DNA of 42,781 nucleotides from a virus: IMG/VR virus record IMGVR_UViG_3300042288_000230, positions 1-42,781 of that record; one strand, written 5' to 3'. Position numbers and translations under genes: made by a program. Positions within the stretch are counted from its first letter, which is position 1. The number at the start of each line of letters is the position of its first letter. Below the pieces are notes generated by a model. That model did not search any database and was not told the DNA's origin. It worked only from the letters and a program-made list of their open reading frames with translations. Shown here piece after piece: positions 14,091 to 17,387 of this stretch.

Positions 14091-17000
14091 TTACCTCGCT
14101 TCTTTCAAATATGCCAGAGGCGACTTAGCCTTTGGCGGAATTTTGTTCAATGGCGCTGAACGCTTGTGCTTACGGATCGCCTCGCGGAACTTGTCAAGCT
14201 TTGCGGCACCTTCCTTTGAAGAGCCGTCACCAAGAGCGGCAACAATATCGGCGTCCATAACGTACTCACCGTCAGCCAACAGAGCGGGAATAAGATCGTC
14301 CTGACCGCCTCCAGCACCACCAACCGCATAACCCTGCATTCTCCTTGAATCTGGAGTGCCTGCAAAGCCATTGGTCTCTGCCATCTTCATCAAACCGCCC
14401 ATGGCCTTCTCTTCGGGTTTATCAGGTTGGCCGCCAGTCTTGGGTTGACCACCCATAAGCTCATCAGCATCGATCTGCTCAAGGGCGCCTTTAGCATCTG
14501 TGGGCGTTTCATCTTCCAGCAAGTCGATCTTGGCTGACTTAGCAATCTGATTGATCAGGGTCTTGCTGATGCCCATGCGCATCAGTTGCTGAACCAATCC
14601 CTCTGGAAGGTTCGAGATGGTTTTCTCTTTCATGATTGGTGCAGCCGCTAGAGTTGTTGGTGTCAGTGACGGAACGTTCTTAAAGCCTTTGTATTGGCTG
14701 CTTGATGCGGTTTGATAGGAAGGTTGATAAGAACCGCCGCCAGTCCCGGCGCCAGTCCCGGTCCCTGTCCCAGTGCCTGTCCCAGTGCCAGTTCCGGTCC
14801 CTGTACCGGTTCCTGTGCCCGTTCCGGTTCCTGTGCCCGTTCCGGTCCCTGTTCCAGTCCCAGTACCGGTGCCGGTGCCCGTTCCGGTTCCGGTTCCGGT
14901 TCCTGTACCCGTTCCGGTTCCGGTTCCGGTTCCAGTACCGGTGCCGGTGCCCGTTCCGGTTCCGGTACCGGTTCCTGTACCAGTACCGGTTCCAGTGCCT
15001 GTGCCAGTGCCGGTACTCGTCTCAGTGCCAGTTATCGGCTCCGATCCGACATCTGAACCCGCAATGATTGTTGGGCCTGTAGACGTGCCTGTAGAAGTGC
15101 CCGTGGAGGTCTCTGGCTGAGACCCAAGAGTAATAATAGTTCCTGGCAAGTCTTGCCCTACATCTGTCGAAACGGTATCAGTACCCGTCTCAACAGAAGT
15201 CCCAGTCTGAGTGCCTGTTTGAGTTGATGGCTCAGTGCCTGCCAAAGTCGATGCGTCAGTACCAGTCTCCGTGCCTGTTCCTAATTGAGTTGAGGTTTCG
15301 GTACCCGTTGAGGTTTGCGCCTCAGTCCCGGTTACGGTTGATGACTCAGTCCCAGTTGCAGTAGATGTTTTGGTGCCGGTCTGTGTTGATGTCCCGGTTT
15401 GAGTTGATACTTCGGACCCGGTATAGGTTGACAACTCGGTTTGAGTCGACGTATCAGTTGAGGAGCCTGTACCGGCTCCTGTTTGAGTTGATGTCCCTGT
15501 CTGTGCTGATACTTGCGTCGAGACGTCGGTTGTTATCTGAGTAGCCGGCTGTGATCCAGCGTTGCCACCAAGATTAGCCGGAACACTAGAAGTAGGAACG
15601 TTTGAAGCAGGCTTAAAGCCGCCCAAAACTTCCGCGCCGAGAGCGTCTTGAGTGCTTGCAGATATACCACCAGTGATTTGATCAATCAACTCAGAAATTG
15701 GTGTTCCTGACGTCTGACCACCGGACGGCTGCCCTGAAGCAGCGCTTAATCCTCCGGCATTGGACGAGCTATCAGAAGAGCTATCAGAAGAGCCGCCGGC
15801 AAGATTGCCAGAGCTATCGGATGTTAATGAGCTAAGACCAGACGAGCTTGAGCTACCGGATACTTTGCCTTTCGTTTTATCAACGGGCTGCTCAACATTG
15901 AATTCTGGGACATCAATTTCAGGAAAATAAATTTCTTCCAACCACTTCAGATTTGGGTCAGTGTTCAGATCCTGCTTGGAGACATAATGAACATCGCCAA
16001 ACTCATCGACATAAGGGAAGCTTTGCGTGAACTCGTTGTACTGAAAGCCAGAAGGAATTCTGGATGATTCGACGGTTAGCGACTGGCTTGGTTGGCTTAA
16101 GTTAAGAACCTGAGAGCCCGAGGCGTCCCATTTGCCAATTGTTGACTTAAACCAGTCGTTATAAAGCTTCTTTTCTTCTGGTGTAGAAAGTTCAGAGACG
16201 AGCGTTGGCGAGTTAACTCCTTCGGTGATCCCTCTGGCCTTTAACATTTCATCAAGCTTAAGAAGGCCTGCCATATGGCCAGCAACAACACCGCCAAGTA
16301 AAGGCAGTCCTGCAACCTTCTCACCACTTGTTACATCAAGCCCCTCAGACAGATTTAAGCCGCCAGTTGCTGCAATGTCTCCCGCGAGACTTGCGGGTAT
16401 ATCCGGCTTGGTATCGGCGACAACTGAAAGGCCGCCGGTTACAGAATCGTTTCCAAGACCCCCGGTGACGGTGCTTAATTGCGTTCCGGGTCCGCCAGTG
16501 ACGTTGTATTCGTCAATAACATTTGGACTTCCTGAGGCCAGGGTCTTTATACCGGTAGACAAAAGTTCGTACGGGTTCTTCGATTGTGAAGCGCTGTAAG
16601 CAGTTTTCAGCGCCTTGTCGACAAGTGCTTTATCAAGTCCGGAAGCGTTGGCAATCTCAGTAGCGGCCATATCAAGGCCGGTATTGATTCCATAGGTTGC
16701 TGCTGCGTTCTTAATCAGGCTTTCAAGATCCGCCCCGCCAAGTGCTTTCAAGGCTGTAGAGGCGGCCATACCCTGTAGTGGTGAGAGTCCGAAGCCTGCA
16801 GCGCCACCCGAAACAACCATGGCGGCCATGTTAAGCAAGGGAGAGATACTCTTTTGGAACGACCCCCTTTGATTGGCGCCAAGCTCAACGTTAACAATCT
16901 TGCCGGTGTCATCGACCGTGATGTTCTGGCCTAGCAGCGTTCCTTTGTTGCCAATGTCATAAGCGTTAGCAAAGGCCGAATATGTCCCCAGGTTCTCATA

Positions 17001-17387
17001 AAGCGGGTTGCCTTCGTTGTCGTAACCAACAAGCTTTTTGTCAGCAGACCAGACCGAAGGGTTTGTAAGTTCATCAGCGCCTTCGCCTTGCGAATAGATA
17101 GGGTTCTTAGCAAAACCTAGCTGCTCAAGCGCATAAGGGTCAAGTTGCGTGCCGACCAGACCCTTGCCTGAGGTTGCAAGCTGATTGGCAATATTCTGAA
17201 TATTGGCCGCGTTTGTTGGGTCTTTATTGAAGTCAAATCGCAAAGACGTTGGTTGAACTGTCGATTGCTGAACTGCCGCTTGCTGAAGTGGCGAAGTGGT
17301 TTGAGAGCTAACGGGCAACCCTTCAAGCCCCTGCTCATCAAGTACCTGCTCAGACTGCAAGCCGCCGATGTTTTCTCTGAAGGCCAT
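14091..17387 (-). CDS. Giant low-complexity virion protein with Thr-Gly repeat
   Basis: A 1098-residue protein. Residues 1-600 look globular, with an Ala-rich hydrophobic helix near 180-215 ([20 protein letters not shown]). Residues about 609-785 are a Ser/Thr/Gln/Gly tract of degenerate TGTSTQTG units, and about 785-880 is an almost pure Thr-Gly repeat. The C-terminal 200 residues are globular again: [18 protein letters not shown], then AALGDGSS and [11 protein letters not shown]. That ending recurs in large internal or tape-measure-like virion proteins. The repeat may be a flexible spacer or glycosylation target. The gene lies between a 76-residue protein and the Gly-rich protein of the late unit. 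Confidence 0.72.
14750..15032. repeat. Six-base in-frame repeat encoding (Thr-Gly)n
   Basis: About 47 copies of a degenerate six-base unit, reading ACNGGN on the minus strand (plus-strand forms such as CCAGTG, CCGGTT, CCTGTA). Third positions vary a lot, so the DNA repeat is imperfect while the Thr-Gly protein repeat is nearly perfect. That suggests selection on the protein. Because units are six bases, gain or loss keeps the frame. The plus strand reads as a Pro-Val repeat, which is only the antisense reflection. Confidence 0.85.

Follow-up and report, generated by a model that had tools for sequence, protein, structure and literature searches.

A Thr-Gly array under strong protein-level constraint in a putative delivery protein of a phage with short-tailed-type neck genes

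Known phage ejection proteins include gp7, gp20 and gp16 of P22 and gp14-gp16 of T7. In the tape-measure protein (TMP) of phage JBD30, residues 930-1021 are predicted to lack structure and residues 1022-1066 to fold into a hook made of two helices and a hairpin; the authors propose, also from prediction, that the rest forms a channel (PMC11445458). In 102 phage proteomes surveyed for low-complexity regions, the longest phage region is reported as 115 aa (PMC6821194). Literature searches for Thr-Gly repeats in tape-measure or other phage proteins returned, in the accessible portions of the sources, only work on the cell walls of lactic acid bacteria, and searches on repeats, hooks and repetitive codons found no report of arrays such as those described here.

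We analyzed a virus record of 42,781 bases, referred to as the window (the whole stretch of DNA under study), in which a minus-strand gene encodes a protein with a long Thr-Gly array. The position occupied by this gene among its neighbours is referred to as the slot. The relevant features are:

10051..11292, minus strand: SLT transglycosylase, putative ejection protein (PF01464; phrog_342, phrog_2013)
11293..13059, minus strand: 588-aa neighbour, putative ejection protein by position
13072..14088, minus strand: 338-aa conserved neighbour of no known family
14091..17387, minus strand: Thr-Gly protein, 1098 aa, ATG start, in the slot between the nozzle/76-aa and the 338-aa/588-aa/SLT genes
14157..14330, minus strand: C-terminal hook-like module, residues 1020-1077, shared with tape-measure proteins
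14751..15014, minus strand: perfect Thr-Gly array, 44 uninterrupted pairs, residues 792-879
about 15015..15539, minus strand: degenerate S/T/G/Q/E tract, residues 617-791, N-terminal to the array
15720..15875 (limits approximate), minus strand: Ser/Gly-rich patch from about residue 511, including a 12-bp repeat at 15766-15793
16398..17387, minus strand: N-terminal part, predicted fold poor
17387..17617, minus strand: 76-aa conserved neighbour
17614..19698, minus strand: nozzle protein (P22 gp10-like; phrog_3287; PDB 8zkk, 9nwi)
20907..21536, minus strand: head-tail adaptor (P22 gp4/SU10 adaptor type, PF24175; PDB 7z47, 9nwi)

The Thr-Gly array is real and goes beyond chance. A preliminary description of this DNA had reported a nearly pure Thr-Gly repeat preceded, in protein order, by a degenerate S/T/G/Q tract; the coordinates and description of the repeat hold, with 44 pure pairs, and the tract is present upstream of it. 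Its assignment of positions 14750-15032 to the repeat was correct for the pure run, while the remainder takes in TGTETS. Periods of 12, 18, 30 and 72 bp were detected in the array by TRF. The same description had called the protein otherwise globular, which the predicted structures do not bear out: the AlphaFold model of residues 1-330, built from only 3 sequences, has a mean pLDDT of 40, and in the model of residues 886-1098 confidence is largely confined to the final 60 or so residues, helices being predicted at positions 161-167, 172-190 and 205-212 of that piece and no hairpin called. Residues 1-319 are 92% identical in L002, the locus most closely related to the window, and 40% identical over part of their length in L003. 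The protein matches no family in Pfam or NCBIfam and no known ejection-protein family in Pfam, NCBIfam or PHROGs; its sole match in PHROGs is a weak one (E 0.0035) between its C-terminal end and a tape-measure family.

Examination of the codons revealed strong constraint on the array at the protein level. In the window array, 13 of the 16 possible spellings of the Thr-Gly unit are present and all four bases occur at third positions, which match the consensus in only 43% of cases, whereas none of the 176 first and second codon positions varies. As the window run was selected for its purity, we also counted changes across the 140 units of L002 with interruptions included, a count that is largely free of that selection; only 2 of 560 first and second positions were changed there, and third-position agreement was 36%. 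In a neutral simulation, in which random substitutions were introduced into an artificial array until its third positions were equally scrambled, the mean number of first- and second-position changes was 98 for the window and 355 for L002, with minima of 62 and 309, respectively. The earlier proposals that wobble positions vary around a nearly exact protein repeat, and that selection acts on the protein, thus gain support both from the near-random third positions and from the gap between observed and simulated changes. This is a clear natural case of a strict amino-acid repeat constraint combined with saturated silent sites.

Both the length and the spelling of the array differ among relatives, and neither copy number nor third positions were constant when this was checked as the finding that would count against the preliminary description. 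The window contains 44 Thr-Gly units, L002 contains 45+5+88, L035 36+26 and L055 39+27, which bears out only part of the proposal that length could change quickly; the single-unit slippage suggested as its route is not visible in the window array. Adjacent identical units number 5 against 5.1 expected in the window, 6 against 10.3 in L002 and 204 against 230.5 across 31 sources, and third positions as scrambled as these make frequent single-unit slippage in the window array unlikely today. The only trace of copying in the window array is a signal at a 12-unit lag (72 bp; p=0.010), and L055 shows one at a 15-unit lag (p=0.007); no lag signal was found in the five other runs tested. Young-looking arrays also exist, L070 consisting of 31 units of one type and L109 of 10 units of one type.

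Comparison with flanking DNA indicates that the arrays turn over faster than the silent sites beside them, as third-position strings cannot be aligned between arrays whose neighbouring fourfold sites are conserved. L035 and L055 agree downstream of the array at 195 of 221 third positions and at 85% of fourfold sites (99 of 116); upstream of it they agree at 135 of 185 third positions and at 67% of fourfold sites (61 of 91). The third-position strings of the two arrays could not be aligned (42/132 when anchored at the 3' end, p 0.50; p 0.05 in a second test, the two values coming from slightly different sets of units). Similarly, the window and L002 are identical at 67 of 102 fourfold sites downstream and 128 of 164 in the N-terminal part, and the third-position strings of their arrays do not align (p 0.52 and 0.58). 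Relatives do share a few exact strings that reach nominal significance, out of a large number tested; one of 11 positions between the window and L055 (p 0.005) is an example. Among 17 pairs compared, wobble strings are common to the near-identical pairs L008/L122, L009/L026, L036/L071, L019/L036 and L019/L071, which serves as a check on the string comparison, and partly common to L018/L063 and L033/L084. They are not common to L018/L077, L033/L056, L043/L068 and L047/L066, nor to the other pairs among the window, L002, L035 and L055. This turnover is best explained, we infer, if blocks are duplicated and related phages recombine their arrays out of register, while selection maintains Thr-Gly. 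Opposite the array of L002 lies an open frame of 288 aa that consists almost entirely of Pro-Val (8727-9593, minus strand), a by-product of the ACNGGN pattern.

The surroundings of the gene are conserved. In the window, the adaptor, a 402-aa protein, the nozzle and the 76-aa protein are encoded upstream, in that order, and the 338-aa, 588-aa and SLT proteins downstream, and the nozzle and adaptor match solved structures annotated as such. We examined the best 80 of 570 loci that carry the C-terminal module, which is present in all 80. Neck or nozzle genes lie upstream on the same strand in 65 of them and the 338-aa/588-aa/SLT genes downstream in 56; both flanks are kept in 45 and at least one in 76, with neither kept in L179, L186, L187 and L200. 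The gene thus has nozzle genes on one side and the SLT gene on the other within the late block, a location characteristic of podovirus ejection proteins, and it is gene order that supports the earlier reading of the product as a virion protein. A short tail is suggested by the nozzle and adaptor genes, on which the term 'short-tailed' as used here is based; the relative MW202545 carries the title Siphoviridae. The cultured relatives identified by the module are the Caulobacter phages RW, RLK, KcrB and GB2A, and the fifth relative, MW202545, is an uncultured-type Caudoviricetes record. Elsewhere in the window, two large laminin-G/concanavalin-type proteins (26870-30403 and 30325-32829, minus strand), whose open reading frames overlap by 79 bases, have a common TQSSAQGVW stretch near their N-termini, and the second contains DUF7483.

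The C-terminal module is related in sequence to tape-measure proteins. A profile built from 15 such modules matches two copies in the Douge TMP (8zdo; E 6e-13) and residues 1019-1054 of the JBD30 TMP (8rk3; E 4e-4), and 13 of the 15 members match phrog_3547, a TMP family. With a wider profile of 55 members, the Douge match holds at 8e-07 and the JBD30 match falls to E 0.033. The sequence of the Thr-Gly protein appears to include the C-terminal GEFV/hook region that is a trait of siphophage tape-measure proteins. The GE(F/Y)V motif is not adjacent to the array, lying 160 residues from it in the window and 168-284 residues in slot relatives. Of 68 coding cases that end in a genuine stop, 12 have GE[FY][VIL] after the array (10 of 16 in the slot and 2 of 52 outside it), against a background of 18 matches in 247,592 aa of other open reading frames. 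A fold search with the C-terminal model gave no PDB match (best E 4.8) and 13 viral matches at E <= 0.001, none functionally named, one of them being labelled a DUF4214 protein and another a collagen-repeat fragment. Hydrophobicity is not distinctive as a membrane signal, the best stretch in the Thr-Gly protein scoring 1.69, no higher than that of the nozzle; stretches of 1.6 or more occur in 23 of 58 relatives.

To place the array within its family, we surveyed low complexity in the 58 full-length proteins among the best 80 of 570 module loci, a sample drawn regardless of Thr-Gly content; tract composition was compared across the 80 loci except five (L154, L157, L159, L169 and L180) that were not parsed by motif. 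A low-complexity window is present in 29 of the 58 slot proteins versus 10 of 227 other open reading frames (Fisher p 1e-15) and absent from the other 29, and ten Thr-Gly pairs in a row occur in only one (L128, on the same contig as L035). The rarity of long Thr-Gly runs, together with the half of the proteins that lack a tract, indicates that the array is not required. Slot tracts are variously rich in T/G, T/N/A, P/T/V, A/Q/E or C/D; as low complexity is common and Thr-Gly runs are rare, the slot seems to favour disorder generally, with Thr-Gly as one form of it. The slot proteins of L005 (6282-8201) and L195 have a cysteine-rich middle in place of Thr-Gly.

A separate scan for ten Thr-Gly pairs found at least 120 loci. 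In 90 of the 120 analyzed the Thr-Gly frame is coding, by the rule that it be the longest open frame and 150 aa or more; in the other 30 a different frame is the longest, and the array may be non-coding. The module or two or more slot markers accompany the array at 24 of the 120, or 29 if five with a nozzle match alone are counted. Thr-Gly arrays also occur in other virion-type proteins, including an SLT tail protein (L031), a baseplate hub/lysozyme-type protein (L121) and a TMP-like protein (L056), and 4 of the 10 proteins in this search for other array carriers matched no family. Among nine filamentous-phage minor-coat-like candidates, only L113 scored above the Pfam cut-off (TspB), and eight matched PHROGs without a function. 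L018 and L063 are related filamentous-phage-like contigs with one IMG taxon number, and their minor-coat-like proteins contain Thr-Gly runs of 15 and 61.

Taken together, these data are best read as pointing to a role for the array as a flexible tether. The protein would be a DNA-delivery (ejection-type) component of the virion in a short-tailed-type phage and would carry a tape-measure-type hook module, a reading to which we give a probability of roughly one half. The proposed role is drawn from the position and composition of the array and from the JBD30 model. The protein would comprise an N-terminal delivery region, a long disordered middle, of which the array would be the most regular part, and a C-terminal module related to the siphophage TMP hook. 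As an uncharged, non-sticky tether, the array would let the two ends separate during threading through the nozzle and the cell envelope. Flexible linker or ejection spacer are accordingly the roles we favour among those that had been suggested.

The main rival to the tether reading is that the slot takes almost any soluble disordered sequence, Thr-Gly having arisen by hexanucleotide expansion and being merely harmless. This is possible, if less probable, given that tracts vary widely in composition among relatives, that young arrays such as L070 and L109 exist and that a tract is missing from half of the family members sampled. However, it predicts Ser, Ala, Asn and Asp in old arrays, and the first and second positions that would encode them are changed at 0 of 176 sites in the window and 2 of 560 in L002. 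We consider it unlikely that array length and spelling are artefacts of short-read assembly of mixed strains. Of 56 whole contigs (among L007-L122), 10 have their Thr-Gly array less than 100 bp from an end, where 1.5 would be expected; assemblies therefore seem to break at the arrays, and array lengths may have been assembled incorrectly. L002, L035 and L055, the close relatives, are moreover contigs from IMG/VR, and assembly chimaeras may lie behind some array turnover. Against an artefact, contigs that are nearly identical agree in their wobble strings and, unless the contig ends in the array, differ in array length by no more than one unit; nor is the reading frame or the Thr-Gly pattern lost anywhere.

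The suggestion that the array is a scaffold for O-glycosylation, its Thr side chains bearing sugars on the virion, is in our view quite improbable. It draws on the abundance of Thr and on a gene for a GT2-like protein with TPR (8979-10067, plus strand) that adjoins the SLT gene and scores 19.7 bits for Glycos_transf_2 against a cut-off of 23.3. This gene is not conserved with the array. PF00535 was found in 2 of 49 records, both times below the cut-off: in the window and in the L166 record, where the slot protein lacks a Thr-Gly array. It was not found in any of the 14 other records that have an array next to the module or in the slot, a set that includes some short fragments as well as the records of L002 (59 kb, with a longer array) and L035 (58 kb). 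A search without a positive control found the window protein in none of eight large relatives, and its ten relatives (about 30% identity) lie on other virus contigs with no slot genes and at most two consecutive Thr-Gly units in the stretches examined. Glycosylation by the phage's own GT2-like gene was rejected, the gene not being tied to the array across relatives, many of whose records are fragments; glycosylation of the array by the host may occur. That a diversifying retroelement rewrites third positions by adenine-specific mutagenesis is extremely unlikely. Near-random third positions that differ between relatives around an otherwise fixed sequence would fit such an element, but no reverse transcriptase (PF00078) was found in the six records searched, some of them short fragments, and the changes are silent, which leaves nothing for diversification to select.

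Extending the tether reading beyond the window, we tentatively suggest, as a somewhat doubtful generalization, that a widespread group of short-tailed-type phages combines a tape-measure-type hook, a length-variable tether and a membrane-active region. The tether DNA would be continually re-spelled by recombination, keeping Thr-Gly and scrambling third positions, and this natural codon scrambling would prevent collapse of the array. New here are the placement of the gene after a P22 gp10-like nozzle and before putative ejection genes, the match of its C-terminal module to the Douge and JBD30 tape-measure proteins, the enrichment of slot proteins in low complexity with long Thr-Gly runs being rare, and the rewriting of Thr-Gly arrays faster than flanking silent sites. 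One small module thereby links short-tailed-type phages to tape-measure proteins, and the slot offers dozens of natural tract variants, differing in composition and length around one conserved module, with which the relation of the tether to DNA delivery is testable.

Several known systems resemble parts of this locus. Drosophila PERIOD has a Thr-Gly repeat of variable length, as the window protein does, although protein and organism are unrelated. The pIII minor coat proteins have Gly-rich linkers, and filamentous TspB/pIII-like minor coat proteins resemble the window in having Thr-Gly arrays of differing length, yet they are unrelated in protein and virion type. The Caulobacter phages RW, RLK, KcrB and GB2A of Riverwalkvirus have a similar gene order and the C-terminal module (49% identity over 70 residues); in GB2A the protein is annotated as a tail length tape measure and, unlike that of the window, lacks a Thr-Gly array and has a P/T/G-rich middle. 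The Thr-Gly protein has no sequence match to the P22 and T7 ejection-protein families, but, as with those proteins, its gene comes after the nozzle genes and has an SLT gene nearby; the SLT protein of the window matches phrog_342, a family of T7-type internal virion proteins. Compared with the TMPs of JBD30 (gp46; PDB 8rk3) and Douge (gp16; PDB 8zdo), the Thr-Gly gene stands in a short-tailed-type nozzle/adaptor order, the tract of its product consists of Thr-Gly, and its module lies close to the C-terminal end, not followed by any long segment. All three proteins nevertheless have a C-terminal GxGxSDxIPxxxxxGEFV module, and in the JBD30 protein a chain predicted to be unstructured lies just upstream of that module.
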